This document shows positions 4,798-23,741 of a DNA stretch of 64,000 nt, in pieces. A program made the translations under genes and the position numbers. Position 1 is the stretch's first letter. The number at the start of each line of letters is the position of its first letter. The stretch spans positions 1-64,000 of the forward strand of contig SCUK01000051.1 in NCBI GenBank assembly GCA_004297445.1, given 5' to 3'. This DNA is from Anaerolineae bacterium. GTDB taxonomy: Bacteria; Chloroflexota; Anaerolineae; Anaerolineales; UBA11579. Under the pieces are notes generated by a model. That model saw nothing but the letters and a program-made list of their open reading frames with translations, was not told where the DNA came from and did not search any database.

Positions 4798-7689
4798 ATG
4801 AAGAAAGCGCTCCTGGTCTATGAAAAAGAATACATAAGTAAGCTCCCCGCCGACCTGCGGGCGCTCCAGCGCCTCCTTGGTATCGCCGGCGCCGATGACC
4901 TGTTTGACCGCGTGCCGCTCAGCCAGGTGTACGTCATGTTGCGAGCGGTGGAAACGCGGCTGAAGCGGACTGGGGACGAGAGCAGAGTGGATAGGGCAGA
5001 AGAAGACGCCCAGGAGCTCGGCCGTCCGGCTCCGCTACTGGAAGCCCTGCTGAACACCCAACGGCTGGTGATCGCCGGCGATCCAGGCGCCGGAAAAACG
5101 ACGTCGCTGCTCTACCTGGCCTGGTGGCTGGTGGGACGCTGCGCAAAGGCTCATAACGACGCGGACATCCTCCCGGAAGCGTCAGGATTCCCCGACATCC
5201 CTCTTCCAGACCCCCCTGACGGCCCATACATCCCGATGTTTTTCCGGCTGCGCGAGATCGCTAGCGAGCTGAAAAGTCCTGCCAACCTGCGCAAACTGGC
5301 TGTCGACCGGGTCAACGACTGGCTGGCCCGGGACATCGCCGAACAAATGGTGGATGCCTGGATGGACGAAGACCGCCTGTTCTTCCTGTTCGACGGGCTG
5401 GATGAGGTCACCCCCGGAGTACGGGGGACGGCACTGAACACCCTGCGCAGATATTCAGATGGTAATACCGAGCTTCCATTGGTGGTGACCTCGCGCGGCG
5501 CCGGCGAGTTGTACCGCCCGCTGGTGGGAGTGGATGGGGCAGGAAAAGTGCAGGCGGACCTGCGGCTCTATCTGCTGCAATCGCTGCGCAAGCGCGAGGA
5601 CCAGCAGGCGTTTGTGGAACGCTGGCTGACGTTGCTGCGCGGCGTCGATAGTGCAGAAGGGGCGGGTCGGCTGCTCGATTGGGCCAGGGCCAGCGGTGGG
5701 GTGCAGAAGATGTGCACCAATCCGCTGCTCCTGCACATGCTGATAGATCTGTATGCTAGGGCGGACTGCCGCACCGACGCCCTGCCGGTTACCCGCAGCC
5801 GGGTGTATGAGTGCTATGTGATCGATATCGCCTGGGCACGCGGGGTGGGAGATGGTAAGCCGCCATTGAAGTACGAACGGGCAGCCCGCCTGCTGGAATT
5901 CATCGCCTGGTTCCTGCAGATCGAGGGGCGCCCGCTGTCACTGGAAGAATTTCAAGAACGCTTGACTGCCTATCTGGAGCCGGACGAAGACCTTGTTGTG
6001 GCATTGACGTTTTTCTCCCAGCGCCTGCGCCTCCTGGTCCCGGTTCATGCCAGGTCCGGGCACGACCAGCGCTACGCCTTCGCCCACCAGACTTTTCAGG
6101 AGTTTTTCGTCGCCCGGCGGCTGGCGGCGCTGTGGCGCGAGCGGCCAGATGGGCCAAAGTGGGTGATGAAGAAGGTGCTGGAGCAGGTGTGGTGGCGCTC
6201 CGAATGGCGCGAGGTCATCCTACTGCTTGGGGCGGCGGTGGGGGCGGAGCCCGGGGAACCGGCTGCTGTTCGGGACGGAGAGCGATTGCTGGAGTGGGCG
6301 GAGAAGTGGCCGGGCGTGGGAGACGGCGAATTGGCTGCGCACCTGATGGGTGAAGGCGTGGCGCCAAGAAGCGCGCTGGCGGAGGCAGTCTTCGAGTCCT
6401 ATCATCGAAAGATGGATCTCTCCTCGATCGTAGCAACGGGTACCCGGTTCCTATCCCGGCTGCAGGACGCACTCCAAGAGGACAACAGCTGGGTGGTGCG
6501 CCAGGCTGCTGCCTCGGCACTGGGGTTGATCGGCGACACGGCGAGCGTGCCGATGTTGCGAGAGGCGCTCAATGATGACACCGAGTGGGTACGCGATGAC
6601 GCGGCCCGGGCGCTTGGCCAAATCGGCGACCCGGCAGCTGTGCCAGCGCTACTAAACACCCTGAGGGATGACTACCTGAGTGTGGGCGAAGCAGCGGCTT
6701 GGGCCCTAAAGAATATCGGCGATCCTTCGGCCATAGCAGGTCTACGGCACGCGCTCCAGGACGACAACAAGAATGTGCGCCTGCTGGCAGCCTGGGCGCT
6801 GCGCGAGCTCGAGAATCCTGCCTCCGAGCCAATAGGAGGTATTAAGGTTACCCTGGCTGCACTGGCGCTAAGAGACTCGCTTAAGAATGACAACCCGCAG
6901 GTGCGCTGGGAAGCCGCAGAGGATCTTGGGTTCATCAGTGACCCCGCAACGGTGGAACTGCTCCGGGACGCGCTCAACCACCCGCGCTGGTCTGTCCGCC
7001 AAGCAGCGGCTGTGACGTTGGGGAACATCGGAGACTCGGTGGCCACGCCTGCACTGCGGGCTGCGCTCCGGGACAATGACCCACGTGTGCGCCAGGAGGT
7101 GATCGAGGCGCTGGGGGAAATTGGCGACGCGACAGTTATTTCGGATCTCGTGGACGCGCTCCAGGAGAATAACAACTGGCTCCGCAGGGCGGCGGCCAGG
7201 GCACTAGGTAACATCGGCGACGCGGCAACCGTGCCAGCGTTGCAGGTGACGCTCAAGGACAGTGACCCCAGTGTTCGTCAAGCAGCGGCACGGGCGCTTC
7301 AGCAGATCGGCCATACGGCAGCCGTGGCAGCGCTGCAGGAAATTCTACCGTTTGACGGCGGGTCGACACCCCAGTCAGTCACCTGGGCACTGGAAAAACT
7401 CGTGCCTTCTGTGGTCCTGCCGCCGCCCATTTTACCGAGTATATGGGGCGAGCGATCTGGTGGAGTCCTTCGCAAGGGAATGAGTCTGGCCGCCAGCCTG
7501 GGAATGCTCGTGCTGGCCGCTGCCGCAGTTGTGTTCGGCGGACTGCTAATCAAATTCATCACGCCCGATCTCATCGCCCAGGTGTGGCCCGATATCGCCG
7601 CGCTGCTCACTTATCATCCCTTGTGGGTCGTCGCGGCCGTCATCCTCCTCACGGCCCTTGTGGACTGGTTGCGCAAGCGAAAGTCGTGA
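4798..7689 (+). CDS. NACHT-domain STAND NTPase with HEAT repeats and two C-terminal membrane helices
   Basis: 963 residues. The P-loop is GDPGAGKT (94-101) and the Walker B is FFLFDGLDE (about 195-203), with the small-residue and acidic pattern of NACHT ATPases. Residues about 547-850 hold nine or ten HEAT repeats of about 31 residues, with the pattern D-x3-VR-x2-AA-x2-LG-x-IGD. The C terminus has two hydrophobic helices (about 893-917 and 941-957) and a basic KRKS end. Bacterial NACHT proteins of this build include anti-phage sensors: the repeats sense a ligand and oligomerisation triggers an effector. No separate effector domain is visible, so the membrane helices may be the output. It has its own promoter and neighbours other defence genes. 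Confidence 0.8.
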   Translation: MKKALLVYEKEYISKLPADLRALQRLLGIAGADDLFDRVPLSQVYVMLRAVETRLKRTGDESRVDRAEEDAQELGRPAPLLEALLNTQRLVIAGDPGAGKTTSLLYLAWWLVGRCAKAHNDADILPEASGFPDIPLPDPPDGPYIPMFFRLREIASELKSPANLRKLAVDRVNDWLARDIAEQMVDAWMDEDRLFFLFDGLDEVTPGVRGTALNTLRRYSDGNTELPLVVTSRGAGELYRPLVGVDGAGKVQADLRLYLLQSLRKREDQQAFVERWLTLLRGVDSAEGAGRLLDWARASGGVQKMCTNPLLLHMLIDLYARADCRTDALPVTRSRVYECYVIDIAWARGVGDGKPPLKYERAARLLEFIAWFLQIEGRPLSLEEFQERLTAYLEPDEDLVVALTFFSQRLRLLVPVHARSGHDQRYAFAHQTFQEFFVARRLAALWRERPDGPKWVMKKVLEQVWWRSEWREVILLLGAAVGAEPGEPAAVRDGERLLEWAEKWPGVGDGELAAHLMGEGVAPRSALAEAVFESYHRKMDLSSIVATGTRFLSRLQDALQEDNSWVVRQAAASALGLIGDTASVPMLREALNDDTEWVRDDAARALGQIGDPAAVPALLNTLRDDYLSVGEAAAWALKNIGDPSAIAGLRHALQDDNKNVRLLAAWALRELENPASEPIGGIKVTLAALALRDSLKNDNPQVRWEAAEDLGFISDPATVELLRDALNHPRWSVRQAAAVTLGNIGDSVATPALRAALRDNDPRVRQEVIEALGEIGDATVISDLVDALQENNNWLRRAAARALGNIGDAATVPALQVTLKDSDPSVRQAAARALQQIGHTAAVAALQEILPFDGGSTPQSVTWALEKLVPSVVLPPPILPSIWGERSGGVLRKGMSLAASLGMLVLAAAAVVFGGLLIKFITPDLIAQVWPDIAALLTYHPLWVVAAVILLTALVDWLRKRKS

Positions 7690-7761: not shown

Positions 7762-10011
7762 TTATCTGCATTTCCCAAGCGGCCACAGTTCCAACTGCCG
7801 CACCGCCCCGGTCACCAGGCTGAGCACATCCCCTTCCTCCAGCCCCAGCGGTACCAGCAGCCCGTGCAATGCTCGCGCCAGCAGTCGCCGGTAGCGGGCA
7901 TGGTCCAGTTCGGCCGGCGCCGGCGGGAACGGCAGTCCCCAGGCTCGCACCGCCGGCGGCCGCCCTTTGAGATACACGAACCCCACCAACTGCCCAACCT
8001 GCACATCCTGCCCCGCGGCGCGCAACTGTCGCGCCGCTTCGGCCGAGGCAGACAGCCCACGGTACTCGTCCGGCTCACGCGTCAGCTTCTGCGAGACCGC
8101 CAGGTCGGCCAGCGGCACCCGTCCGGCGTGCAGGGCTGCCACGGCCTTCTGCGCCAGGGCCACGATCTCCGGCAGGGCGGTCTCCAGCGGCCGCTCGCGC
8201 GGCACCGCCGCCAGGATGGCCAGCGCGTCGGCTTCCGCCTGGGCGATCCAGGCCGGCGTGTCTCTGCGCCGCTGGGCAAGCCCGCGCACTTTGAGTTTGC
8301 CGTCCAGAAACTTGCCGAAGTAACGGTTGGCGGCCCCGACCCGCGGGTTGCCCTTGGCTGGTACGAAGGCCAGCCACTCGAACACCCCTTCCAGGTTCAG
8401 CACCAGCCCGGTGTCGCGCTGGATTTCTTCCAGCAGGTCCTGGAAATCCTGCGGCTCCGTCGCCCCCTGCCTCTGCACAAACAGGCTGTCGGTGTTGGCC
8501 CCCAACACGGAGTAACCGAGCCGGAAGGCGGTCTCTTTGGCAATGGTCAGGGTCTCGCGCCCCACCGCGCAGATGGCTTCATGCGCCTGGGGATGGCCAA
8601 AGCGATTGTTCTTGAATCCCTGATACCCGAACGATACCCAGCCCAGCCATTTCAGTCCTTCGGCGGCCGCCTCCAGCACCGGCCAGCGCGGGTCGTCTCT
8701 GGGGATCTCCTTCATCATCAGTTTCGCTTTGCGGCGCTTGGTCAGCACCGGCTTGAGTACTGTCGCCACCAGCCCCGGCTCATCCTGCGTGATGGGCGTG
8801 GCGGTCTGGGGCACATAGCGGTTGCTCCTGCCCGTCCTCCCTACGGTTTCGCCGCTGATATTCCACGTCGCCATGATCTGTGGGTACATGGAGAAAAAAT
8901 CCAGCTCCGCCACGCTGTAGTGCAGCCCGACCAGAGGGCGGTAGTTCAGGCCGCCGCGGTCGGCCAGATGGAAATCGCGCGCCGAGCGAAAGGGTTCGAC
9001 CTGGCGCTTATGGAGCGGCACCAGCACCCCGCGTCGCAGGGCCTCGACCATCTGCAACGCGGTGAACCCCGCTCCCGGGCTGCTGCGGGCGGCTACCTGT
9101 ACTCCCACCCCGGTGATGCGGGCCAGCTCCAGCGCCGCCGCCAGGCTGAAGCCGCCGAACATGCTGGTGTTGTGTGGGTCGATGTGCCAGCGGCCAAAAA
9201 GATGCGTCTGCCCGGCACGGTGGTGCACATCGCCGTACGAATAGAAGCGGAAGGCTTTCTTGTGGAGCACGTCCCGGCTAATATCGCGGTTGGGCTGGAA
9301 GGGGATGCCGGCCTGCGCCGCCCATTCGAACAGCTGCGGGAATAGCCAGGCGTCGCCGTGCGGGCAGAGCAGCAGGTCCGGGTCGAAGTCGTCCAGGATC
9401 GTCCCCAGTTCTTTCAGGACGTGGAGCGGTTGGGCTAGCGAGATCTCGCGCTCGGTCTCGCCGTAGATCAGCCGGAGAGAGCGCAGCGGCGTCTGCGCTG
9501 GCGGCGAGTCTGGCTGGATGTACAGCGTCCGTACCGGCGGGAAGTCGAACTGGAAATCCCAGGGATTGTCCAGGGCGCGGATACTTTCGATGCGCTTGCC
9601 ATCCACGGCCGCCTGGACACGGGCGGTGGGGAAGACGCCGGCCGCGGCCAGCAATCGTACCGAAAATGGGATATCGATATCGTAGTAGTACAGTCGCCTG
9701 AAGCGCCGGCGCAACGCCCTAGCCCACCGCATCGCGTGGATCTCGGTGGCCGCCTGAACGGCCAGCACGGTCTGCGGGCCGCGGAACAGCTCGCGCCGTT
9801 CCATGAATTCCATCACCGGCGGGTCTTGCCGCTCCGCCAGCCAGGCGCGGGCGTCTGCCAGGCAGTCCGACGCCCCGCCCAGGTAGAACGTCACCGGGAA
9901 GGGCATCGCCAGCCGCCTTCGGGCGCCGTCTTCCCCCAGCAGCCACAACACCGCCCCGGCCTGTTCGTCCGGGTAGGCATCCAGCAGCCAGCCGCGCAGA
10001 TCAGAAGTCAT
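7762..10011 (-). CDS. Family B DNA polymerase, likely without proofreading, last gene of a three-gene operon
   Basis: 749 residues. Polymerase motif A is ELDFFSMYP (catalytic D371). The motif B region is SFGYQGFKNNRFG (459-471). Motif C reads GANTDSLFV (504-512), with Asn where most family B enzymes have the first Asp of DTDS; the second Asp (D508) is kept. In the 3'-5' exonuclease region (about 160-270) I cannot find the D-x-E of Exo I, so proofreading is probably absent. The start overlaps the upstream coiled-coil gene by 11 bp. A translesion or repair role is inferred from this context and the missing exonuclease. Replicative use is unlikely, since bacteria use PolC/DnaE for that. Confidence 0.8.
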   Translation of the reverse strand: MTSDLRGWLLDAYPDEQAGAVLWLLGEDGARRRLAMPFPVTFYLGGASDCLADARAWLAERQDPPVMEFMERRELFRGPQTVLAVQAATEIHAMRWARALRRRFRRLYYYDIDIPFSVRLLAAAGVFPTARVQAAVDGKRIESIRALDNPWDFQFDFPPVRTLYIQPDSPPAQTPLRSLRLIYGETEREISLAQPLHVLKELGTILDDFDPDLLLCPHGDAWLFPQLFEWAAQAGIPFQPNRDISRDVLHKKAFRFYSYGDVHHRAGQTHLFGRWHIDPHNTSMFGGFSLAAALELARITGVGVQVAARSSPGAGFTALQMVEALRRGVLVPLHKRQVEPFRSARDFHLADRGGLNYRPLVGLHYSVAELDFFSMYPQIMATWNISGETVGRTGRSNRYVPQTATPITQDEPGLVATVLKPVLTKRRKAKLMMKEIPRDDPRWPVLEAAAEGLKWLGWVSFGYQGFKNNRFGHPQAHEAICAVGRETLTIAKETAFRLGYSVLGANTDSLFVQRQGATEPQDFQDLLEEIQRDTGLVLNLEGVFEWLAFVPAKGNPRVGAANRYFGKFLDGKLKVRGLAQRRRDTPAWIAQAEADALAILAAVPRERPLETALPEIVALAQKAVAALHAGRVPLADLAVSQKLTREPDEYRGLSASAEAARQLRAAGQDVQVGQLVGFVYLKGRPPAVRAWGLPFPPAPAELDHARYRRLLARALHGLLVPLGLEEGDVLSLVTGAVRQLELWPLGKCR

Positions 10012-10390
10012 TTGCAGGGTAGCGGGCTTCGAGCAGCTCAGCGTGGGCGATGCTCAGGCCGGTGCGCAACTCCTCGCGCAGTTGCTCGATCTCGCCGCGC
10101 AGCGCCGTAAGCTGGCCTTCGAGTGCCTGCTTCTCGCCTAGCCGCGCCGCCAAGCCGGTTTGCAGGCGGACGATGGTCTTCTCCTGCTCGAGCGTGATGG
10201 CCATCAGGATCGAAGCGATGGGCAGCGGGTGGCCGCCCTGTTCCATGGCCGGGATATGGAACTCGGAGCGGTCCCACAGGTCTTCGAACAACAGCTGGTC
10301 CTCGCGCAGCAGCAAGGCGCGGCGGAATTGGGTGAAATAGCCCCGCTCGCGCTGGAACTGGAAGGTGAAGGGGGTCTGGGTGTGGCCCAT
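10001..10390 (-). CDS. Small coiled-coil protein between RecA-like and PolB genes
   Basis: 129 residues, family not recognised. The N-terminal half has aromatic and charged residues (TPFTFQFQRERGYFTQF). Residues about 75-115 form a clear coiled coil rich in Leu, Glu and Gln. It starts 3 nt after the stop of the RecA-like gene and overlaps the polymerase start by 11 bp, so translation is probably coupled. Inference: an adaptor joining the RecA-like protein to the polymerase, as ImuB does in mutasomes, though there is no sequence similarity to ImuB. Confidence 0.6.
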   Translation of the reverse strand: MGHTQTPFTFQFQRERGYFTQFRRALLLREDQLLFEDLWDRSEFHIPAMEQGGHPLPIASILMAITLEQEKTIVRLQTGLAARLGEKQALEGQLTALRGEIEQLREELRTGLSIAHAELLEARYPANDF

Positions 10391-10393
10391 GGC

Positions 10394-10876
10394 TCAGCAG
10401 ATTCTCACGGTCGCGCACTCGCGCCGCAGGACGGCGAAAAGTCCAGACCGGGCGGGGCCCGGCGCCGCGCTGGCCACCACCGGGCAAGCGGCCCAAACCC
10501 GGCGCAGTTCGCGCAGCCCCTGAAACAGCAGATCGTCCGCCTCGCGCACCGGTAGGTCTTCATCGTGCAGCGGGGCGAGCAGGTCGCCCACGAGCGCCGG
10601 AACGCCGTCTGCTGGCGTATGCTGCAACAGGGACAGCCACTGGTGGGCGGTCTCGGCCCGCGCCAGGGTGATGCGCTCGTCCAAGATCTCGTGGTAGTCT
10701 CCACTCCTGTGAGCAATTATGTAGGCCAGCTCGTACGGGTCGAAGCGATTGCCACAGACGAGCATTCTCACCGGGCCGCGCAGCGCCAGTCCGGCCGCCA
10801 GGCGCTCCAGGCGGGCGGCGGCGCGAGATGGGGGCCCGGCAATCAGTTTCAATCCGGGGGTGAAGTGCAACGGCAT
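10394..10876 (-). CDS. RecA/Rad51-fold protein lacking the Walker A motif
   Basis: 160 residues. The opening KLIAGPPSRAAARLERLAAG follows the RecA-type strand-loop-helix, but the usual GxGKT is replaced by GPPSRAAA (14-21), so ATP binding is doubtful. The next strand MLVCGNRFDPYELAYI and the later VPALVGDLLAPLHDED resemble the second strand and the Walker B strand of RadA-like proteins. It is shorter than RecA (about 350 residues). As first gene of the operon with a coiled-coil protein and PolB, it recalls ImuA, another degenerate RecA-like partner of a damage polymerase. No canonical ribosome binding site is seen before the ATG. Confidence 0.55.
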   Translation of the reverse strand: MPLHFTPGLKLIAGPPSRAAARLERLAAGLALRGPVRMLVCGNRFDPYELAYIIAHRSGDYHEILDERITLARAETAHQWLSLLQHTPADGVPALVGDLLAPLHDEDLPVREADDLLFQGLRELRRVWAACPVVASAAPGPARSGLFAVLRRECATVRIC

Positions 10877-11021: not shown

Positions 11022-11069
11022 GCCGAATAGGCGCTGGCGGACTCCTAATTCCGCCTGTGCCTATTCGGC
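11022..11069. repeat. Long inverted repeat (stem-loop)
   Basis: The outer arms GCCGAATAGGC (11022-11032) and GCCTATTCGGC (11059-11069) are perfect. Inner arms GGCGG and CCGCC extend the stem around an AT-rich loop. The structure lies 2 bp past the stop of the RHH antitoxin gene and may protect that mRNA 3' end; it lacks a U tract. Confidence 0.6.
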
Positions 11070-11071
11070 GT

Positions 11072-11317
11072 TCAGCGCCGCCGATCTTCTTTGAGCAGGT
11101 CGATGGTGCGTGGCGCGTTCGGCCCGGGCGTGAAGCGCCTCCTCTGGATCGAAGCGAGCGCACGCTTGTGCTTGCCGCGGCCCGCCCGGCGCCATTCCAG
11201 GGCCCCGGCGAGCAGCGCGGCGACTTCAGTGCTCAGCGAACGGCCATTGGCGCGCGCCCGTTCCCGCAACGCTTCAACCAGCTCTCGGGGCACGCGACGG
11301 ATGTGCAGGGTGGGCAT
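11072..11317 (-). CDS. Ribbon-helix-helix antitoxin (Arc/FitA-like), orphan
   Basis: 81 residues. The start MPTLHIRRVPRELVEAL and the following RARANGRSLSTEVAALL match the ribbon-helix-helix fold of FitA/VapB-type antitoxins: a short beta strand, then two helices. The C-terminal half is basic and probably unfolded without a partner. A PIN toxin would be expected directly downstream, but only a stem-loop and a terminator are there, so the toxin is missing. RBS-like AGGAGG lies a few bases before the start. Confidence 0.75.
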   Translation of the reverse strand: MPTLHIRRVPRELVEALRERARANGRSLSTEVAALLAGALEWRRAGRGKHKRALASIQRRRFTPGPNAPRTIDLLKEDRRR

Positions 11318-11344: not shown

Positions 11345-11779
11345 TTAGCTTGTCGCAGGTGGTTCGGTCTCGTCGTAGGCCGAGAAGTCCCAGTCGCGCA
11401 GCACGAACGCCAGCTGGCGGCGTCCCTTCAGGCCGAACTTGCGCACCGCGTTGCCCAGATACACCTTGACCGTGTCCGGCGCCAGGTGCAGGCGGGCGGC
11501 GATCTGCGGGTTGGTGCGGCCCAGGCAGGCCAGGGCGGACACCTGCTGCTCGCGCTCCGAGAGCGTCTGCCAGCGCCGCACGTTCTCATCCAGTTCCTGC
11601 GTTCGCGCCGCGATGGCCTGCTGCAGCAGCCCCGCGGCGAGTTCTTCCGGCGTCATGCCCGCCTGATTCGCCAGCGCGTCCAATTGCTCCAGCGTCCCGG
11701 GCGGCAGCGCGAGGACAAGCCTCGCCTCGGCCAGCGCGCGCCGTAGGCGGGACTTCATGTAGGTGAAGGGTGTATGCAT
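11345..11779 (-). CDS. LuxR/GerE-type HTH transcriptional regulator
   Basis: 144 residues from ATG 11779; a longer form to 11854 would run through a palindrome and is less likely. The C-terminal half is a GerE helix-turn-helix: LSEREQQVSALACLGRTN, then PQIAARLHLAPDTVKVYL with the recognition helix. The N-terminal part is helical and resembles no receiver or autoinducer domain, so the signal is unknown. It may regulate itself through the palindrome at 11811-11826. Confidence 0.7.
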   Translation of the reverse strand: MHTPFTYMKSRLRRALAEARLVLALPPGTLEQLDALANQAGMTPEELAAGLLQQAIAARTQELDENVRRWQTLSEREQQVSALACLGRTNPQIAARLHLAPDTVKVYLGNAVRKFGLKGRRQLAFVLRDWDFSAYDETEPPATS

Positions 11780-11810
11780 CGTCTGATAGCCAATCCTATC
11801 CCCACAATAC

Positions 11811-11826
11811 CAGAACGGGTGTTCTG
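11811..11826. promoter_or_regulatory. Palindromic operator, SOS-box-like
   Basis: CAGAACGGGTGTTCTG has perfect 6-bp arms around 4 bases. The core GAAC-N4-GTTC is the form of Gram-positive-type LexA boxes. It lies about 30 bp upstream of the chosen LuxR-type start. LexA binding is an inference from the core alone. Confidence 0.4.
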
Positions 11827-11985
11827 GGGTCAAGGCAGGCAATGAAATTGTCACGAGTCTGTCGTCTAGCGCTTATTGGAAAGGGTCGCTGGCATTAGGT
11901 GATCCTCCCTTCTAGATAGCGTACGTTCTTCCTTTTAGGTTTCGCTGGCCTAGTCAGGCAAGTTCGGTAGTTGAGTGAACTGATT

Positions 11986-13299
11986 TCAGCTAGCCATCTC
12001 AGTCCGGTGGTTGTTGTTGGTCAGGAGTCCCAACTTATGAGCATAGCGATAGACCGATGCCTGCGACACCCCTAACTCGGATGCAAGCGCCCTCCTAGTG
12101 CACTTGGAATCCGTCCATTTGTTCCTGAGATGCTTCTGCCAAACCCTGCCATAGTCGATTACCCGGTCATAGCTGTGTTTGTTTACTCCCTCGAAATCCG
12201 GCCCATAACGAAGGTAGGAGAATCCACAACGACACCGGAATGTCCCGCTAATCCGATAAGGCCTGCCGCTTGCGGAGACTGCTACGGCTTTTATGCACTC
12301 ATTGCCGTAGTTGGAGCAAAGAGGATTTAGGCACGGCCATGGCCCTTTTCCGAAATATCCGGGAGCTTCGGTTTCAAACAGACTTTCCAAGTCAATGGAG
12401 AGAAATTCTGCAAGAAGGAGGTGATAGATTGGGGAGCCGTAGTTTCCACTCATGTTCATGACAGCACTTATCCAATTGTTTCGACTGGATGGAGAAATCA
12501 TTGCTCCCAGTTCATCCAGCAATTCTCGGTCAAAGAAGTCCGAAACCATTTGTGCAACCGCCCCATGTTGTTTTTGATAACGAAATGTCATAAGTTCGAG
12601 CTCAATAAGCGCTTTGTGATAGTGGGCGCGAAAGTGTTCGGGGCATCGTTTAGGGAGCGTGGCCTTGATCAGCCAGTCCGCCTTCTTTGCCAAGTTGAGG
12701 TAGTGCGCGCCGCTCGCCAATTCTTCGAAACCCCGTCCCTCTTCAAACGGATCCAACTCTTCAAGGGAAATGAACTCTCGCGGAGCTCGATGTTGATTCC
12801 CGCCGCACTTAATTGCATCCTCTAGTACCAAACTATGTTGGGGGCACACATGAACGATATCTATTTGATGGACCCGATGGAAGTACGCTTCTCCAAATGA
12901 TGCCCGGTCAACCCTTACGCACTCCGCACAATAGCGCAAAGGGCTACGTGTTGAGGCTTTACCCCGGTTGTGTCCATACCTTCCCAGGGAGTACCTTTCT
13001 GACGAACTGGCCATTTGGGCGCGAAGGCCCAAAGCCGCCTTCGTATCAAGAAACGCTGAGTGGTAGGGGTACAGCGTATGGAAATCGATGATGTGATCCA
13101 GGGTCAGCGAATGAATGGGGGATAGTCTGGACACGAATGCCTGCAAGTGATTGGGAAGATCAATAGGCGCCACTTGTGTGTTAGACCCAAACAGGCTTGC
13201 TATTAGGTCTTTGTTGCTGCCGCCCTGGAACTCTCTTCTATAGCGAGAAACGGCGCTATAGAAGATTTCTTCATTCCAGATGTCTCCAAAACCGTTCAA
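11986..13299 (-). CDS. tniQ: TniQ/TnsD-family target-selection protein, second copy
   Basis: 437 residues. I chose TTG 13299 because AGGAG lies 8 nt before it and the resulting N terminus (NGFGDIWNEEIFYSAVSR) aligns with the neighbouring copy (NSFGDIWREEIIYSAIAR). A zinc-finger region follows: RYCAECVRVD, then FGEAYFHRVHQI and VCPQH, and later a second Cys set (CLNPLC, CRCGF). The C terminus ends in a helix-turn-helix (ALASELGVSQASVYRYAHKL). In Tn7, TnsD binds the attachment site and recruits TnsC. Its strong likeness to the copy at 13861-15804 points to duplication. Confidence 0.85.
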   Translation of the reverse strand: MNGFGDIWNEEIFYSAVSRYRREFQGGSNKDLIASLFGSNTQVAPIDLPNHLQAFVSRLSPIHSLTLDHIIDFHTLYPYHSAFLDTKAALGLRAQMASSSERYSLGRYGHNRGKASTRSPLRYCAECVRVDRASFGEAYFHRVHQIDIVHVCPQHSLVLEDAIKCGGNQHRAPREFISLEELDPFEEGRGFEELASGAHYLNLAKKADWLIKATLPKRCPEHFRAHYHKALIELELMTFRYQKQHGAVAQMVSDFFDRELLDELGAMISPSSRNNWISAVMNMSGNYGSPIYHLLLAEFLSIDLESLFETEAPGYFGKGPWPCLNPLCSNYGNECIKAVAVSASGRPYRISGTFRCRCGFSYLRYGPDFEGVNKHSYDRVIDYGRVWQKHLRNKWTDSKCTRRALASELGVSQASVYRYAHKLGLLTNNNHRTEMAS

Positions 13300-13393
13300 C
13301 TTGAAGCTCCTGAGCACTACCCAGACAAATGGCTTCAGCGGCTTCTAGCCAGTAAGTCAAATAGTCTTGGCGCGTTGCCGGCGAAGCGAATCC

Positions 13394-13861
13394 CTAACCC
13401 GAGGAGATCTTCGTCTTTTGACAATGATTGCTACAGTATTTTCGCCAGGGCACATTAGGGACAAAGACCACTGAACAACCAGGGCGCAGGCACTTCCTGC
13501 TGCGCCCCAGTACAAGTGCTCCCTTTTCAACATTACTCCCGGGCGAAAAAACTTCTGTGGGGAAGCCAATTTGATCCGGTGCCTTTTCTGTTTCGAGGTT
13601 CTCTGCTAGTACTTGGATTGCCCTAGAAAGGCGCTTTCCGGGAATAAGTGATCCGGTGTGAACGCTCAGAATTGCTCTCCCGGACCATGCCGAGGTTTTG
13701 CCAGCCACAACTGCGAGATCGCGGCCAACAATCTCATAATCACGAAACTGCACTCTGTGCCTTCGAAGTTGCTGATCATATATTCCGGCTACTCCTCGTT
13801 TGATTAGGATGGCGACCAGAGCATCTCTGATTTCTGTGGCGTCTTTTGAAAAACGTGACAT
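13394..13861 (-). CDS. Small zinc-finger protein encoded inside the Tn7-like module
   Basis: 155 residues from ATG 13861, which overlaps the stop of the first tniQ gene (TAATG), so it is translationally coupled. The C terminus carries a four-Cys site: RKCLRPGCSVVF, then WRKYCSNHCQKT (C-x4-C, 13 residues, C-x3-C), recalling CGNR-type fingers. The rest is unrecognised. Placed between two target-selection genes, it may help DNA binding or regulate the module. No such protein belongs to canonical Tn7. Confidence 0.65.
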   Translation of the reverse strand: MSRFSKDATEIRDALVAILIKRGVAGIYDQQLRRHRVQFRDYEIVGRDLAVVAGKTSAWSGRAILSVHTGSLIPGKRLSRAIQVLAENLETEKAPDQIGFPTEVFSPGSNVEKGALVLGRSRKCLRPGCSVVFVPNVPWRKYCSNHCQKTKISSG

Positions 13862-15804
13862 TAATCTGACACCATTGAGGGCATAAAAAAGTGCGCTTCT
13901 ATTTCTTTGTAGGCTGTATCCAATGCGTCCTGAATCTCCTTCATGTGGCGAAGCCTGGATAACCCGGACACTCTTTCTAGCTGCCATTTCTTAATCGGAC
14001 GCCCAGACTCGATCATTTTCTTCTTGTTCCAGTTAATGCGTCTGACCGCAGACTGAATGCGAGATTCGACCACCTGCTCCAGAAGCGCTGCGCTTTTCGG
14101 CAAACGATTTAGATGCCTAACGACACTTCCCGTACATTTGATTTGTTTCACAATAGCAGACGTGGTAATTCGCTTTGGTCGATCACCCGATGTCAACAGC
14201 CGAAGAGCGATTTGCTTGATTTCATCTGCGCATTGATTGTCGCGTGCCGCCCAATCAACTAACGTTTCGTTAGAGCCGTTGTTGTAAGGCAGCTTTATCT
14301 GATTGGCACGTACAAATTCGCGGTCATACCGCATGAGCCATGCGTGCGTAGCAGGATCCACCTTGGCCATTTCTGAGGCACCAAAGTCTGGGTACTTTCG
14401 ACGTAGGGCAAGATATTTCTTGCGCCGTCGATACCGCTCCTCATCTGTAATTCGCGGTTTCCTCGGAGTAAATCGCGGCGTTTTCCGAGGATCTTTCTGC
14501 TTGCTACTTCCCGGACGGTCGATTGGGAGCTGAAGTTTGTGCGCGTGGCGTTGAACCGTAAGGGGTACAACCCCTAGAGCGGTTGCCAGAGATTCCAATG
14601 ACAGTGACGGATCCAGCCATCGATCGGCAAGATATTTTCCCCATTCCTCACCATAGTCTACGATATAGTCCAAATTGAATTTTCGTGCCCCCTGATAATC
14701 AGGTCCGTAGCGTCTATAAGTAAAGCCACAATGGCACCGGAATTCGCCTCTGAGTCGACGAGTGGCTCGGCAAGTGGAAATATCCACGTTATCGATAACC
14801 GGCATCTGATAGTCCGAGCAAACCCTGTTGAGGCATGGCCATGGCCCCCCGCCGAAGAACCCTGGAGGGCTCTCTTCGAACAAAATCTTGAATTCCAGCG
14901 AAAGAAAGAGGCAAACCAGGATATGGCAGATCGGAGTACTTACTTCCCCAGAGTTGCGAAGAGTTTTCAGCAGCCAGAATTGCTTCGATTTCGAATTTGT
15001 TGGCAATCCAATCGATTCCACCAATCTCATCGGAAACAAATCATTGAAGGCTCTAACAAGCTCTGAATTGTTCTTTACTTTTTTGCTGTAGGTCGAGAGG
15101 CCGACATCCGCCAATGTGCGCTGGTAGTGGTCGGTAAAATGCGTATACGATTTGGATTCATGCGGGTTTGAAAGGAGCCATTGCGCGCTTTGAGCGATGG
15201 CCAAATACTGGTTCGCATAATCCTGTGTGCTAATTGATAGGTCTTCTGCCTCCAGGGAGCATTCTTCCAGGGCCAGAAACGCTTGATCGTTCTTGTGAAA
15301 TCTGTACATGCCGACATTTGTATCTAGTAGCCTACACGCATGCTCTGGACATACCATAACAACTCCGATTTGATGAACTCGATGAAAATACGCCTCCCCA
15401 AACGTCTGGCGATCCTGCTCCACGCATCTCGGACAATATCGCATGTGCGCACGTCTAAGGTTTCGCTGCCACAGAGCTCCCAATATCGTGAAAATGCGCT
15501 GGCCCGACGAGCCATACATGAGCTCTCGAATCTCGGCAATTCGCTCTCCGTTCAAAAATGCTGTGTGGTAAGGAAAAAGTGTATGGCAGTCAATGATTTT
15601 ATCGACTGTCAAAGTATGCGTGGGAGATAAGCGACTGGTGAATTCTCCCAAGTGGCTTGGAAAGTCCACCGTGGCTCTGAGGTTTATTGTGCCAAACAGG
15701 TCCATCAAGAGGGAGCTATGTGATTTGTATCCCAGATCTCGTCTATGCCGTGCAATAGCGCTATATATAATCTCTTCACGCCAGATGTCGCCGAACGAAT
15801 TCAT
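13861..15804 (-). CDS. tnsD: TniQ/TnsD-family target-selection protein with long C-terminal extension
   Basis: 647 residues from ATG 15804, with AGGAG about 7 nt upstream on the minus strand, overlapping the tnsC stop. The N-terminal TniQ core has RYCPRCVEQDRQTFGEAYFH, then VCPEH and the later CLNRVC and CHCGF pairs. A helix-turn-helix follows (SLATALGVVPLTVQRHAHKL). The last 200 or so residues add further basic, HTH-like segments, giving the length of a true TnsD rather than a short TniQ. It should recognise the chromosomal attachment site. That site could not be identified here. Confidence 0.85.
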   Translation of the reverse strand: MNSFGDIWREEIIYSAIARHRRDLGYKSHSSLLMDLFGTINLRATVDFPSHLGEFTSRLSPTHTLTVDKIIDCHTLFPYHTAFLNGERIAEIRELMYGSSGQRIFTILGALWQRNLRRAHMRYCPRCVEQDRQTFGEAYFHRVHQIGVVMVCPEHACRLLDTNVGMYRFHKNDQAFLALEECSLEAEDLSISTQDYANQYLAIAQSAQWLLSNPHESKSYTHFTDHYQRTLADVGLSTYSKKVKNNSELVRAFNDLFPMRLVESIGLPTNSKSKQFWLLKTLRNSGEVSTPICHILVCLFLSLEFKILFEESPPGFFGGGPWPCLNRVCSDYQMPVIDNVDISTCRATRRLRGEFRCHCGFTYRRYGPDYQGARKFNLDYIVDYGEEWGKYLADRWLDPSLSLESLATALGVVPLTVQRHAHKLQLPIDRPGSSKQKDPRKTPRFTPRKPRITDEERYRRRKKYLALRRKYPDFGASEMAKVDPATHAWLMRYDREFVRANQIKLPYNNGSNETLVDWAARDNQCADEIKQIALRLLTSGDRPKRITTSAIVKQIKCTGSVVRHLNRLPKSAALLEQVVESRIQSAVRRINWNKKKMIESGRPIKKWQLERVSGLSRLRHMKEIQDALDTAYKEIEAHFFMPSMVSD

Positions 15805-15814
15805 GTCGCATCTC

Positions 15815-17341
15815 CTAAACCCAGCGATCAATTGGCACGATAACCCCTGATGCGCGCAGAGCGACCACAAAGTCCTTTTTCGTCCGGGTTGCTTCTCTGA
15901 AGATTCCACGAAGATCCGAAGGATCTAGCTGACTTTCGGTACGCCGGCTCGCGGACTTCTTCGTTTTTCTTGGTTTCTTGGGGAAATCATCTGATGAGGG
16001 CTCCTCCCCCGTGTTAGCTTCTCCTACTACGGTTAGATTCTCATTGGGCGCATTGGGCAGCTTTGTTATGGTTTCCTTGATTTCTATATCCATTGCAACG
16101 GCTTCAATTAGCTCTTTTACATCCAAAGGTCTCAAGTCCTCAATGGTCTTTAGTTTGTCGAGGTCTTTTGATTTCAACGCGTCCAAAGCCGTCTTTAGGT
16201 AGCCCAGATGATCTTTGGCTACGGAGCGAATCAGGTTGACTGTCAGACTTTCCATGCCTGTTTGCATGGATCGCGATTGAGCCAACATGAAGGTCTTAAT
16301 CGCCACATCGGTGATGCCTTGGCTTACTTCGTATAAAGCGTTGCTTAATTCATCACTGAGCGGGGACGGCTTCCGAATGTATTGGTATTTCCAGACGGCC
16401 TGCAGAAAAGCGCTCCAATCATCGCCCTTGTCTATACGGTGCCACTCTTGGGCCCCCTCTCCCGAGGATCGACGAGCCATTCGAAACTCGCCCTTGAACA
16501 GAGTGAGCGCTTTGTAAGTGCCAATCAATATCACCGGTATTCCCACCAAGTTAACCAGCGATACCAGATAATTCAAAAGCGTAGATCGTTCAACTCCTCT
16601 CGCGTCGACAAGATTCTGAATTTCATCTATGACCAAAATCCCTATTCGGTGTTGTTCAACGACAGTTTTTATCCCGAGCAGTTTCTCTCCTATGTTGCTG
16701 CGCCTATATATTTGGGAATAGTTTGTTCCAATTACATCGTCAACTGCTGCAAAAAAACCCTCGCAAAGTGCTGCGAGACGACCGTCATACGGACAGTCTA
16801 TTTTTAGCCATACAAGTTGGATGAAATTGAATTCCAATCCCATGTATTGACTATGAAACACCACCTGAGGAAATATTGACAACGCAGCACCGACCGCCGT
16901 CGTTTTCCCTATGCCCGAAATCCCTATCACCATAAATCCCGTGCCGCTCTTTTTGCGGTTCGCCTTTCGCTCCACTCGTGAGTGCAGCTTATGGAGAGAT
17001 CCGTCAACGATGTTTCGCCCCAGATAGCTCCGCCTGATTGCTATATCGATTGACCGAAAGAGCTGGATGTGCCGATGATCGGGTTTGATTAGCTCCAATA
17101 AAGTAAAGAGATGATGGAGCCGAATATGTGTTGGTTGATCTCGGCTTTCCACGACGAATTCCGGGTAATTTGCGAGAGATTTGTAAATCTCTTTATCCGA
17201 AAAAATCGGTGGTAGTGCCTCTATGAAAGGGTTTCTACGGTAACTGGGGACTTCTGATTTATGGTATTCTGCAGCTACAATTCGTCCTGCCCCATAAGCC
17301 GGCAGTGAAATTTCCTTCTGTTCAGTCTTGTGCGTTTTCAT
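15815..17341 (-). CDS. tnsC: TnsC-like AAA+ ATPase, transposition regulator
   Basis: 508 residues. Walker A is GISGIGKTT (140-148) and Walker B is ILVIDEIQ (235-242), as in the TnsC/TniB branch of AAA+ proteins. The N-terminal 130 residues and the charged C-terminal tail (about 430-508) are probably contact regions for TnsA/TnsB and TniQ. Known role: it links target selection to the transposase. The start overlaps tnsB by 20 bp and is preceded by GAGGAG; the stop is 11 nt before the first tniQ. Confidence 0.88.
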   Translation of the reverse strand: MKTHKTEQKEISLPAYGAGRIVAAEYHKSEVPSYRRNPFIEALPPIFSDKEIYKSLANYPEFVVESRDQPTHIRLHHLFTLLELIKPDHRHIQLFRSIDIAIRRSYLGRNIVDGSLHKLHSRVERKANRKKSGTGFMVIGISGIGKTTAVGAALSIFPQVVFHSQYMGLEFNFIQLVWLKIDCPYDGRLAALCEGFFAAVDDVIGTNYSQIYRRSNIGEKLLGIKTVVEQHRIGILVIDEIQNLVDARGVERSTLLNYLVSLVNLVGIPVILIGTYKALTLFKGEFRMARRSSGEGAQEWHRIDKGDDWSAFLQAVWKYQYIRKPSPLSDELSNALYEVSQGITDVAIKTFMLAQSRSMQTGMESLTVNLIRSVAKDHLGYLKTALDALKSKDLDKLKTIEDLRPLDVKELIEAVAMDIEIKETITKLPNAPNENLTVVGEANTGEEPSSDDFPKKPRKTKKSASRRTESQLDPSDLRGIFREATRTKKDFVVALRASGVIVPIDRWV

Positions 17342-19508
17342 TCTTTATCTCCTCGTCCCACAACGCATGTTCTAAGAGGTTTTTTGGGGGTGAGACATAG
17401 TCGTTTGTCGATTCTGAGGGATCGACCTTCAATTTGGCGCCTGCTGTTCGACCCTTGTCTGTAATGAAGGGGGTGGAAACACGCTCATCTTCGAGTTCCT
17501 TGGCCCTGGTTTTTCGGGAGTTCGCAGCGCTTACTTTTCCCCCAGATGGGGCTGCTCGAGATTGCTCTGAGCGAGCGTGTTCGGCCATAGCTTGTATGTG
17601 ATAGTTTCGATCAGAGATAGCTTGTTGTTTCATGGTCTCGCGATCATATCTAACGAGCGACTTGACTGAATCTCCATACAGCCACTCTGCATACTCGTAA
17701 TTTCCCCACAGAGAATCTTCCGGATGGAGAGTAGCAACCTCATAACCGTCAGTACTGGGTACACCGACATAAATTTGTCGGGGATTTCGGGGATCGTAGA
17801 TAACGCTCGTGCCTATATTCCGTTCAGAATGTCCGCTTATCCGCAATCCGAGCGCATCTATTTTGGGCGATATGTATTTGCGCCCAGAGAAATGAATTCC
17901 CTCACGCGAAATCGATCCATTCGCTCGGGGAAGTAGCCCTATCTTGTCGGTGTCGGGATAGTAGCTTCTGAGAATTCCAGTTCGATTGGTGATCCCCCAG
18001 TGCCATAAGTCTAAAGGATTAGTTATCAGACCTTCCGCCAATATTTGGGGGTCGAAAGGATAGTTTTCTTTGTCTATCTCATGGGTTAGGTTATAGGTCT
18101 GAAATTCGATAAACAGGATTTCTCTAATTTCATCCATCGTAAAGACCGCGTCATGCCGGTATTTCTTGCCTTCTCGTCCGGAAAGGTTATATGTGGATCC
18201 AGGAAGCCAGTCAACGACTTCTTGGTTCAATATGTGAAAGATGGATTCCACAATTGGCTTCCAGTCGGGGCGATAAGGAGGCAAATTGCTGAGCCGGATT
18301 CCCAGCCCAGAAACGATCGTCTCCGCCTTTTTGCTCGCGCCTTCTCCACGATCGAAAATGATTGACTGGCAGCGGCCCAGGGCAGGAACCTCAAGCGGAT
18401 TGACTTTGATGCCAAACAGGGTTTCGGCTAGAGGCGTTTTGTCACTGAACGCGTTGTCCAGGGCAAGCGCAGCGGCAATCCAACTCGGCTGTTCCAACGT
18501 CAGGTAAAAACCGACCACTAAGCCCGAAAAAGTGTCCATCACAACATATAGCCATGGCCTTCCGATCACCCATTTCCGGTTCAGCTTAGAGACTGCGTAG
18601 CAGTCCAAGTAGCATGTGTCTATTTGATAGCGCGAACCAGGGCCATAAGCGATCGAGAAGGCCGAGCCCCTAATGGGACGAAACCTCGTGTTAAAAGCTC
18701 TCTTCCCATAACGGGATTCGAGGTAATCCGTAGGGTTTTTTGCGCTGAGTTTCTTCCATATATATCTGAACTGATCAAGAGTTATAGAATCGTTCTGATG
18801 GGGAAGAATTGGCTTACGTATGCCTCCATTCATCTCGTACCCGACATTGAAAAACGTGCCCAATACGGCATTGTAGATCTTCGGGACTGAAAGCGGTGAA
18901 CTCTTGTACATCCGGTAGGCGGCGTAAAGCTTCGTTTCTACTTCGCTCGTTATGGGTATGCCTGGTCCCTCGCCGCGAATACTTTCAGCCAGGTTCCTTT
19001 TACCCGGCTTCTTGTCCGTAAACTTGCGCTGTTTTCCCTTCCCCCCTGACTTGGAATAATCTGGCAACAACGCATTTAGGATCTGACCGCGCTGCAGCCA
19101 GCGACGCAACCACTTATAGAGTGTCGGTTTCACTGACTTATCGCGTTCAATAGCAGAACGGATCATCTCGCCGCGCGAGATTGGATCAAAGATCAGATAG
19201 TTGGGATCACCAGAAGGAGTTTTGACCAGGGATTCGATGGACTTCCAGGCAGTCGCTCGTTTTCTTTTCGATGCTTCTGAGAGGTCCTCATCGCGTTTAT
19301 GCGATAGATAAGCATATGGATCGGGGACGATCTTCGCAATATCGCGTTCTATTAATGAACTCAACTCGGATATGCTGCGCCAAGAAGGAAGTGCACTTGG
19401 ATCATTAATATCTATGAAGACGAGTTGTTCTCGATTCGGAATCGCAAGAATGCGAAAATTTCTCTCCTCGCCAACAATCTCGAATACTTCATTTACGTTC
19501 AAGTTCAT
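17322..19508 (-). CDS. tnsB: TnsB-like DDE transposase
   Basis: 728 residues. The retroviral-integrase core carries D297 (YQIDTCYLD), D386 (IIFDRGEG) and E421 (KPIVESIFH), the D-D-35-E arrangement with 34 residues between the last two. Helical DNA-binding domains fill the N-terminal 250 residues, and a Mu-C-like beta domain and a charged tail follow the core. It cuts the 3' ends of the element and joins them to target DNA. It overlaps tnsA by 4 bp (ATGA) and tnsC by 20 bp. All three catalytic residues are intact. Confidence 0.9.
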   Translation of the reverse strand: MNLNVNEVFEIVGEERNFRILAIPNREQLVFIDINDPSALPSWRSISELSSLIERDIAKIVPDPYAYLSHKRDEDLSEASKRKRATAWKSIESLVKTPSGDPNYLIFDPISRGEMIRSAIERDKSVKPTLYKWLRRWLQRGQILNALLPDYSKSGGKGKQRKFTDKKPGKRNLAESIRGEGPGIPITSEVETKLYAAYRMYKSSPLSVPKIYNAVLGTFFNVGYEMNGGIRKPILPHQNDSITLDQFRYIWKKLSAKNPTDYLESRYGKRAFNTRFRPIRGSAFSIAYGPGSRYQIDTCYLDCYAVSKLNRKWVIGRPWLYVVMDTFSGLVVGFYLTLEQPSWIAAALALDNAFSDKTPLAETLFGIKVNPLEVPALGRCQSIIFDRGEGASKKAETIVSGLGIRLSNLPPYRPDWKPIVESIFHILNQEVVDWLPGSTYNLSGREGKKYRHDAVFTMDEIREILFIEFQTYNLTHEIDKENYPFDPQILAEGLITNPLDLWHWGITNRTGILRSYYPDTDKIGLLPRANGSISREGIHFSGRKYISPKIDALGLRISGHSERNIGTSVIYDPRNPRQIYVGVPSTDGYEVATLHPEDSLWGNYEYAEWLYGDSVKSLVRYDRETMKQQAISDRNYHIQAMAEHARSEQSRAAPSGGKVSAANSRKTRAKELEDERVSTPFITDKGRTAGAKLKVDPSESTNDYVSPPKNLLEHALWDEEIKNENAQD

Positions 19509-20332
19509 TTGGAGATAGATGAGCCTGGCGAGGCAGGAGAGAAGTGAGTGTTCCAGTCAATTTGCCATTGGTGTGTAGCTATCATATGGAGAGCGATGCT
19601 CAACGATGTTCCGGGTTCATGGCCGAGAAATTCATCGGCCTCTGCGCAAATATCTCTGAGGGCGCGATTGTTTCTCGGCATTTTGCCGATCAAATAGTCT
19701 CTGAGTCTTATTCGCGTTTTGCTTGATAGCGGCAGCCCGTCCTCGGTAGCATGGGGTTGGAGGAGCTTGCTGTTCTTGACAATTGGAACTTCCAGTTCAT
19801 CCTGTGTCATAACCCCATAGTTGATTGACAATGCGTCGAAATATCGGCGGGATATCTCGAGTTTTTGAACGGTTCTGGCTTCCCTAAGTTTGACTTTTGG
19901 TTTGATGTCACGTGCCAACCTTCGGACTGTCCCATCTATTGCAACAGTGACTAGAAAATCCACAGTCATAACAGTGAGATCTTGTGTTCCCGGTTCGGTG
20001 GGGTGTTTTATGCCGAGGTTCTCACAAATCTGGATAGTCATCTCTATGGGAAGCAGTGGAAACTGTTCGTTGATGTCGATTACGCGTGGATGCAAGTCGT
20101 AGAAGCAGAATGCCGTGTGTTCAAGTTCAGATAGCAAATGGTATATTCGCGCTATTTTGCTGCCGAGAACACGTGAATCGACTCCCAGTGATGAGAAGTC
20201 GGTTGTGAAGATCCAGGGGAGGTAGTTTGTTAGATTTCCCTGACCCCGCCCCTCCTTAAGTTTCTTCTGGATATTTTTTGCCGAGTTGGACTTTTTGGGT
20301 CTGCTCACTAGACTACTCTTGTTATTTAACAT
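19505..20332 (-). CDS. tnsA: TnsA-like endonuclease
   Basis: 275 residues. The nuclease fold shows E71 (SELEHTAF), D125 (MTVDFLV) and the K144 region (ARDIKPK), followed by KLEISRRYF, the family pattern. TnsA cuts the 5' ends, so this element should move by cut-and-paste rather than by cointegrate formation. It is the first gene of the minus-strand operon, with a strong promoter 30 bp upstream. No clear ribosome binding site precedes ATG 20332. Confidence 0.87.
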   Translation of the reverse strand: MLNNKSSLVSRPKKSNSAKNIQKKLKEGRGQGNLTNYLPWIFTTDFSSLGVDSRVLGSKIARIYHLLSELEHTAFCFYDLHPRVIDINEQFPLLPIEMTIQICENLGIKHPTEPGTQDLTVMTVDFLVTVAIDGTVRRLARDIKPKVKLREARTVQKLEISRRYFDALSINYGVMTQDELEVPIVKNSKLLQPHATEDGLPLSSKTRIRLRDYLIGKMPRNNRALRDICAEADEFLGHEPGTSLSIALHMIATHQWQIDWNTHFSPASPGSSISK

Positions 20333-21722: not shown

Positions 21723-23741
21723 CTATGGCGTCGGCGTGCCTGTGAGTTCTTCGTACTTGGCAAAGTCTCGTTCAGCCTCGATTTCGCGTCCGAGTACCCT
21801 AAGAGCCACTCCGCGAGCGTAGTAGGCAATTGCGAATTCCGGGTCAAGTTCGATGGCCCGGTCGAAGTCCTGGACGGCGAGGTCGAAATTGAGTAGTCCC
21901 GCGTATGTAAGGCCGCGGTTGTTGTAGGCAAGCGCGAGTTTTGGGTCGAGCTCAATGGCCCGGTCGTAATCCTGGATGGCGCGTCTGTGGTCCCCAAGAC
22001 TAGCATAGGCAGCCCCGCGGTTGTTGTAGGCGAGGGCATATTCTCGGTCCAGCTCGATAGCCCGGTCGTAGTCCTGGATCGCGCGCTCATACTCGCCAAG
22101 GGCAGCATAGGCTTTCCCGCGATTGTTGTATGCGGTAGTAATTTCCGGATCCAGCTCGATAGACAGGTCATAGTTTTGGATCGCGCGCTTGTGCTCGCCA
22201 AGGGCGGCATAGGCAACCCCGCGGTTGGAGTAGACGGCAGCCAATCCCGGGTCCAGCTCGATGGCCCGGTCGAAGTCCAGGATCGCGCGCTCGTAATCGT
22301 CCAGACTGGCATAAGCGACCCCGCGGTTGGAGTAGGCGGCAAGATATTCTGGGTCGAGTTCAACAGCATGGTCGTAGTCCTGAATGGCACGCTCGTAATC
22401 GCCCAAATCAGCATAGGTGACCCCACGGTTGTTATAGGCGCTAGCAACTTCCAAGTCCAACTCGATTGCCCGATCATAGTCCTGGATCGCGCGCTCGTAA
22501 TCGTCCAGACTGGCATAAGCGACCCCGCGGTTGAAATAAGAGACAGCATCGTCCGGATCGAGTTCAATAGCTCGGTCGTAGTCCAGGATCGCGCGCTCGT
22601 AATCGTCGAGGAAAACAAACCCAAGCCCGCGACCAATATATGCGCTAGAGAATTCGGGGACCAGCTCGATAGCCCTGTCGTAGTCCAGGATCGCATGCTC
22701 GTACTCGCCAAGGGCAAGATAAGCAGCTCCTCGGTTGAAGTAGGCGGCAACACCTTCGGGGTCAATCTCAATAGCCCTGTCATAGTCCTGAACTGCGCGC
22801 TCGTACTCGCCAAGGGAGAGTTCGGACGTGCCCCGACAATAGAAGATTACTTCCAGGACTGTAACCAAGCGAACCTCGGAGGACAGCAAGTCTAGCGCTT
22901 GGTCGAAACGCTGAATGGCCTCGGGAAAGCGCGCCGCCTGGTAGTCCAAAACCCCCGCCAGAAAAGAAATCAGGGCGGCGGATTCCTCTCCGGCCTGCTG
23001 CTGGAACGCGAAGGACTCCAGTTCTCCGATTGCAACAATTGGCTGAAGTACCTCGCTTTCATTTAATGGAATGAGCGCGCCCGCGGATAGATTCTCGATG
23101 TGGATTATGATGTTGGGGTTCTCTGTCGGGCGATACCAGCCCCAGATCACAACGTCCGCCTGCCGATTCTCCCCGATTTTTCGTGCCCGGCTACTACCTT
23201 CAGCGGGCGAAATGACTTCGTTGAAGGGGATGATCCGGATTTCCAGGTCGTCACCAAATTCGGCATTGAGCTGTTCGAGGATCTCGTTGCGCAACCCAAA
23301 GGTATCTTCTGGGCCATCAAACTCGGCGATCAAGACGATGAGCCTCTCTTCCTGGGCCTGCCGGTGTTCGGTCACAGCCCACCCGCCCCCCACCCCCAGA
23401 AGGACGAGCGCAGCCAGCAACATCCACGCTACGCGCCGAGCTTTCTCCCCATAGGCCGGTTCGCGCCGGGTTTTCCGGGGGGCGCGGGTCCACATCGGCA
23501 GGATGATGGTGTCCGTGACCTCGTTCTGCTTGAGCCCCACCCAGAGCAGCCGTCCTACCAGGATGGCCAGGACTCCCCCAATCAGCAACCACGCCACACC
23601 CTGTTGATCACCCAGCCACAGTTTGTAGAAATTGTAGACGAGGGTCACGGCGGCCAGGAAGCCAGCGACCGGCAGCCAGAATCGCTTGACCAGTTCTGTG
23701 AATCGCTCGTCTTTTTTGGGGTCCGGGGCTTGAGACGTCAT
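21723..23741 (-). CDS. Membrane-anchored TPR-repeat protein
   Basis: 672 residues. Three hydrophobic helices lie in the N-terminal part (about 21-43, 48-70, 104-123). A globular segment (about 130-250) opens with IVLIAEFDGPED and includes ADVVIWGWY. About a dozen tetratricopeptide repeats of exactly 34 residues follow (about 255-660), with the consensus YNNRGVAYASLGDYERAIQD then YDRAIELDPE. The coding DNA is therefore a tandem array of 102-bp units. TPR arrays bind peptides or scaffold complexes. The partner is unknown, and no link to the flanking systems is visible. Confidence 0.75.
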   Translation of the reverse strand: MTSQAPDPKKDERFTELVKRFWLPVAGFLAAVTLVYNFYKLWLGDQQGVAWLLIGGVLAILVGRLLWVGLKQNEVTDTIILPMWTRAPRKTRREPAYGEKARRVAWMLLAALVLLGVGGGWAVTEHRQAQEERLIVLIAEFDGPEDTFGLRNEILEQLNAEFGDDLEIRIIPFNEVISPAEGSSRARKIGENRQADVVIWGWYRPTENPNIIIHIENLSAGALIPLNESEVLQPIVAIGELESFAFQQQAGEESAALISFLAGVLDYQAARFPEAIQRFDQALDLLSSEVRLVTVLEVIFYCRGTSELSLGEYERAVQDYDRAIEIDPEGVAAYFNRGAAYLALGEYEHAILDYDRAIELVPEFSSAYIGRGLGFVFLDDYERAILDYDRAIELDPDDAVSYFNRGVAYASLDDYERAIQDYDRAIELDLEVASAYNNRGVTYADLGDYERAIQDYDHAVELDPEYLAAYSNRGVAYASLDDYERAILDFDRAIELDPGLAAVYSNRGVAYAALGEHKRAIQNYDLSIELDPEITTAYNNRGKAYAALGEYERAIQDYDRAIELDREYALAYNNRGAAYASLGDHRRAIQDYDRAIELDPKLALAYNNRGLTYAGLLNFDLAVQDFDRAIELDPEFAIAYYARGVALRVLGREIEAERDFAKYEELTGTPTP

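Follow-up and report, generated by a model that had tools for sequence, protein, structure and literature searches.

Results

The analysed window, i.e., the whole stretch of 64,000 nucleotides at the start of a contig of a Chloroflexota genome, carries on its minus strand a three-gene operon that spans positions 7762-10876. The genes are packed or overlapping and follow one another in the order iRadA, PPB2 and PolB2. The first (10394..10876) encodes iRadA, a protein of 160 aa with a RAD51/RadA fold and without an ATPase site, which was recognised using a profile and an AlphaFold2 model. The second (10001..10390) encodes PPB2, a small arCOG07300-like protein of 129 aa, which was recognised from its sequence and its profile-found relatives, while the third (7762..10011) encodes PolB2, a family B DNA polymerase of 749 aa, whose assignment was based on Pfam, NCBIfam, AlphaFold2, Foldseek and a motif alignment. 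The gap between iRadA and PPB2 is 3 bp and the end of PPB2 overlaps the start of PolB2 by 11 bp. Three packed or overlapping reading frames had been proposed here in the original prediction, and its coordinates proved to be exact. Scans for promoters and terminators returned weak matches only.

Upstream of iRadA, there are two further genes on the minus strand: one for a FitA-like ribbon-helix-helix (RHH) protein (11072..11317; Pfam FitA-like_RHH, 2e-10) and, beyond it, gerE, which encodes a small LuxR/GerE-type helix-turn-helix protein of 169 aa (11345..11854, where the true start may be 11779; Pfam GerE, 2e-14), a candidate regulator. A 20-nt inverted repeat (90%, 8-nt loop) was observed at 11022-11069, in the stretch that separates iRadA from the RHH gene. 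A Tn7-like set of genes (11986-20332), also on the minus strand, ends 0.1 kb from gerE and is composed of two TniQ/TnsD genes, the second at 11986-13317 and the first at 13861-15909, tnsC/tniB (15815-17341), a tnsB-like rve/Mu transposase gene (17322-19508) and tnsA (19505-20332). Elsewhere in the window, the plus strand encodes a SAVED-domain protein that includes an Mrr-like nuclease region and resembles a CBASS-type effector (453-2201), a 963-aa AAA/NACHT-like NTPase that has numerous HEAT repeats as well as hydrophobic segments at its C terminus and is possibly a STAND-type defence protein (4798-7689), and an N6 methylase that adjoins Eco57I-type restriction-modification methylase genes (24010-26381). 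Additionally, a 102-bp tandem repeat (21837-22835) lies inside the gene for a 672-aa TPR-repeat protein.

PolB2 matched Pfam DNA_pol_B (5e-21) and NCBIfam models of type-B polymerases (about 1e-85, below their cut-offs), among them 'type B DNA-directed DNA polymerase' (2e-85). Its AlphaFold2 model (pLDDT 92.5) was matched along its length by archaeal PolB structures, with 5mdn at a Foldseek E of 5e-40, and the PDB entries nearest to a profile of the PolB2 relatives were archaeal PolB as well (5mdn, 4flt). The assignment to family B is solid, and the polymerase is of the archaeal type. In the profile alignment, which compares sequences only, the Exo I acids FDIE of 5mdn align to IQPD in PolB2, and in the test of the exonuclease domain the profile match was interrupted between residues about 242 and 280. 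As read from these alignments, the 3'-5' exonuclease domain is inactivated and Exo I is lost. Instead of the usual DTD, palm motif C (codons 506-508; 8488..8496, minus strand) has NTD in the window protein and YVD in most of the relatives. The 24-sequence alignment showed that the first Asp of DxD is replaced in the window PolB2 as well as in all 23 aligned relatives, while the second (D508) is invariant.

A profile of 22 iRadA homologues from neighbouring genomes matched RadA structures (E 2.4e-7). The AlphaFold2 model of iRadA, which was built on 58 sequences (pLDDT 94.9), aligned with RAD51, Dmc1 and RadA over residues 1-160 with a Z of about 17 and an rmsd of about 2 Å. The P-loop is absent: residues 14-21 (10814..10837, minus strand) read GPPSRAAA in place of GxxGxGK[T/S], and the model places a strand at 9-13 and then a helix at 16-33 around this degenerate Walker A position. 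Moreover, the N-terminal domain is absent and the C terminus is short. Because of the profile match to RadA, the RAD51 fold and the GPPSRAAA stretch at the P-loop position, iRadA was classified as a homologue of RadA/RAD51 that is inactivated and lacks the N-terminal domain. This relationship was seen only in profile and fold searches; single-sequence Pfam searches were uninformative and gave no match for iRadA or PPB2. The RecA-fold protein without a P-loop and the PolB without an evident Exo I, both of which had been predicted from the sequence, are thus borne out, together with the small, putatively coiled-coil protein between them. The prediction had been staked beforehand on a RecA fold of the 160-aa protein, and the fold is present.

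PPB2 (arCOG07300) was described as a small helical protein with a conserved N-terminal MGRT arm in the main text of PMC11791011. The window protein begins with MGHT (10379..10390, minus strand), the counterpart of this arm as judged from the sequence, its relatives and the published family, and its C-terminal tail is longer than in most of the relatives. When the 80 further loci described below were searched with a PPB2 profile, relatives were identified in 69, and 62 of these carry an [MV]GxT stretch. This count was used instead of the 24-sequence PPB2 alignment, which was collected using the MG[RHK]T motif, so that the invariance of the motif there is by construction and not independent.

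The polB2 gene was present in 27 of 61 related genomes, with iRadA and PPB2 adjoining it in nearly all of the intact loci. A wider contig scan revealed 80 further loci in many phyla, including Chloroflexota, Nitrospirota, Ignavibacteria, Bacteroidetes, Acidobacteria, Thermodesulfobacteriota, Elusimicrobiota and others; these were obtained using an alignment as the query, while a single PolB2 protein as the query gave none. An iRadA partner was found in 67 of the 80 loci, and among the other 13 the upstream sequence exceeds 1 kb only at L078 and L138. The cultivable Anaerolineae relatives Levilinea saccharolytica (L099) and Leptolinea tardivitalis (L101) are among the carriers of the operon. 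Because it is conserved across phyla, the triplet goes beyond chance. The genome survey for a RecA-like/coiled-coil/PolB triplet that the original prediction had called for has therefore shown it to be widely conserved. The same genome also contains a second intact iRadA-PPB2-PolB2 operon on contig C20 (L002/L036), whose PolB2 and iRadA are 64% and 62% identical to those of the window, as well as decayed polB2 remnants on contigs C79 (L003, L004) and C55 (L005, L006). The second operon and the remnants suggest a repeated gain and loss of the polB2 operon. A DinB-type Y-family gene was also observed on contig C20.

A match to the beta-clamp-binding consensus, the putative motif QLELW, was found at the C terminus of PolB2 (codons 739-743; 7783..7797, minus strand), and none was found in iRadA. 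Using the strict consensus for 91 loci, 40 had the motif solely on iRadA, five solely on PolB2 and two on both, while 44 had it on neither. The five loci with the motif on PolB2 only are the window copy, its paralogue on C20 (L002), L007, L117 and L143. This tally agrees with the pattern reported for PolB2 mutasomes, in which the motif is on either iRadA or PolB2 and rarely on both (PMC11791011, main text).

Among the Chloroflexota loci with enough sequence, gerE lies upstream of iRadA on the same strand in 26 of 40, in 24 of them at a distance of at most 180 bp, compared to 0 of 21 loci from the other phyla. The related small GerE proteins have a conserved C-terminal WDFS tail (e.g., L042, L044, L048, L050, L054, L098 and L103). 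Since gerE is directly beside iRadA in most of the relatives, with no RHH gene between them, the FitA-like RHH gene is possibly outside the system. Across the 61 genomes, and with their kinship ignored, polB2 was present in 12 of the 13 that have a full-length gerE copy (over 90 bits) and in 15 of the 48 without one. In four of these 12 polB2-carrying genomes (G028, G035, G036 and G040), the gerE copy is located away from the polB2 operon, and the link between the two genes is therefore strong but not absolute. No LexA was found near the operon; the sole LexA found in the genome is on contig C24, while the window is on C73, and hence the operon does not show the lexA linkage that was published for bacterial operons.

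Discussion

In this study, the three genes were found to belong to a system that is already described in kind, to which the window copy adds local variations. In 2014, Makarova and colleagues predicted a conserved operon of PolB2, arCOG07300 and an inactivated RadA in archaea and several bacteria, sometimes with lexA (PMC4104785). In 2025, Timinskas and colleagues named PPB2 and iRadA and modelled a PolB2-iRadA-PPB2(3) heteropentamer, the 'PolB2 mutasome' (PMC11791011), and bacterial PolB2 was also covered in a survey from 2026 (PMC12926913). The window operon has the same three families as the archaeal Dpo2 operon and the bacterial G2/PolB2 operons (PMC4104785; PMC11791011, main text), and it has the same bacterial gene order, iRadA-PPB2-PolB2, the only one that the main text of the latter reports for bacteria. 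It also shares the MG[R/H]T arm, the loss of the exonuclease, the loss of the first DxD Asp, which according to the same text is substituted in most PolB2 members, the iRadA without a P-loop and a clamp motif on one subunit. Compared with the system as presented there, it differs in that the clamp-like motif is on PolB2 and not on iRadA as is usual, motif C is NTD, iRadA is shorter, PPB2 is longer, a GerE-type gene is upstream and a lexA neighbour is absent. Every core feature of the PolB2 mutasome that was examined was found in the window. The operon has no lexA nearby; in the published account, lexA is enriched in the bacterial PolB2 neighbourhoods (PMC11791011, main text), and this enrichment is not a strict requirement.

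We conclude, with a probability of about 0.93, that the three genes form a PolB2 mutasome operon, which is archaeal in origin and is located in a Chloroflexota genome, with a likely role in error-prone translesion extension. The mutasome-like reading of the original prediction is well supported by the wide conservation of the triplet and by the RecA/RAD51 fold of the 160-aa protein, the two points whose absence had been named as decisive against it. Its view that such a system was undescribed was wrong, as the operon was reported in 2014 (PMC4104785) and modelled in 2025 (PMC11791011). By this identification, a Chloroflexota genome is linked to translesion machinery with a polymerase that was characterised in archaea by genetics and biochemistry (PMC7390963, PMC8764526), and the loci supply many bacterial sequences for testing the PolB2 mutasome.

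Based on the published modelling, a PPB2 trimer would join with single copies of PolB2 and iRadA to form a pentamer. In it, iRadA, without the usual ATP binding or hydrolysis, would serve as a docking subunit that is held by PolB2 through a motif resembling the RAD51 oligomerisation site, and one PPB2 N-terminal arm (MGHT) would enter the PolB2-iRadA cleft near the DNA. Because it lacks proofreading, PolB2 is proposed to extend mismatched or lesion-terminated primers after damage, i.e., to perform error-prone translesion extension, while its putative C-terminal QLELW motif probably anchors it to the replicative beta clamp. The window clade provides a natural example in which PolB2, and not iRadA, bears the clamp motif. 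In Sulfolobus, PolB2 (Dpo2) is an active polymerase that is exonuclease-free and extends mismatched and lesion-terminated primers (PMC8764526), and it is the damage-inducible source of targeted mutagenesis, for which it is required (PMC7390963). By analogy, the bacterial copy would act as the archaeal PolB2 does with regard to polymerase activity, the extender role, mutagenesis and damage induction. Since the window clade is divergent, with NTD for YVD, MGHT for MGRT, a longer PPB2 and a shorter iRadA, it could deviate in activity or in how the partners contact each other.

Where the operon has no lexA beside it, the recurrent GerE-type neighbour hints at how it may be activated. We tentatively propose, at somewhat less than even odds, that a dedicated GerE-type protein, here the product of the adjacent gene, may control the PolB2 mutasome in Chloroflexota, either replacing LexA or adding to it. 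If true, a bacterial mutasome would here respond to damage through a distinct circuit. The main texts covered mention no GerE neighbour of the PolB2 operon, and a literature search found none that links PolB2 with LuxR and Chloroflexota, which makes the neighbour a possible new detail.

The adjacent transposition genes raise the question of whether the operon could instead be the cargo of a Tn7-like element and act in the upkeep of that element or in host conflict, and not in damage tolerance in general. The presence of tnsA, tnsB, tnsC and two TniQ/TnsD genes only 0.1 kb from gerE would fit this idea, as would the several copies or remnants in the genome and the G+C content, which is 63-72% in the operon and differs from both flanks (44-53% in the Tn7-like genes and 43-49% in the far left flank). 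However, the G+C content changes abruptly between tnsD and gerE, as if the element stopped there, and a simple scan for inverted repeats of the Tn7 terminal type (TGT...ACA, 15/20 or more matching) with a 5-bp duplication found none. Because the window starts at the contig start, one end of the element may be missing. On balance, we consider the cargo role to be unlikely.

Still less probable is that the PolB2 operon is decaying or catalytically dead and persists as a regulatory or structural relic or is being lost. This would be consistent with the loss of the first DxD Asp, the short iRadA and the broken polB2 remnants on C79 and C55 of the same genome. However, the window copy consists of three intact frames with conserved motifs, and the PolB2 of S. 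islandicus, which the main text of PMC11791011 lists with IID at the DxD site, is still a robust polymerase (PMC8764526). Moreover, all 23 aligned relatives also lack this first Asp.

ImuA-ImuB-DnaE2 unites a RecA-like protein, an adaptor and a polymerase in one operon. The layout parallel with an unrelated polymerase and adaptor, as originally predicted, does hold: ImuA-ImuB-DnaE2 has a C-family polymerase and an inactive Y-family adaptor, whereas the window operon encodes a polymerase of the B family and, as the middle gene, a PPB2-like protein of 129 aa. Despite this parallel, and although two of the three proteins are left unnamed by single-sequence Pfam searches, a new mutasome that arose from unrelated parts as a convergent analogue of ImuA-ImuB-DnaE2 is extremely improbable and is rejected because the core features of the PolB2 family are present, and the order, motifs and fold of each protein agree with the PolB2, PPB2 and iRadA families as described. 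A categorically new mutasome is ruled out by the membership in the PolB2 operon family. The PolB2 mutasome model was likened to E. coli Pol V (UmuC-UmuD'2-RecA), in which the recombinase is also held via its oligomerisation site and one small-subunit arm is near the active site (PMC11791011, main text). Pol V differs, however, in having a Y-family polymerase, an active RecA and an unrelated small subunit. E. coli Pol II has the same B-family fold (Foldseek 3k59, E 2e-33), but it is a single subunit with an active exonuclease, and the PolB2 profile scores far higher against archaeal PolB.
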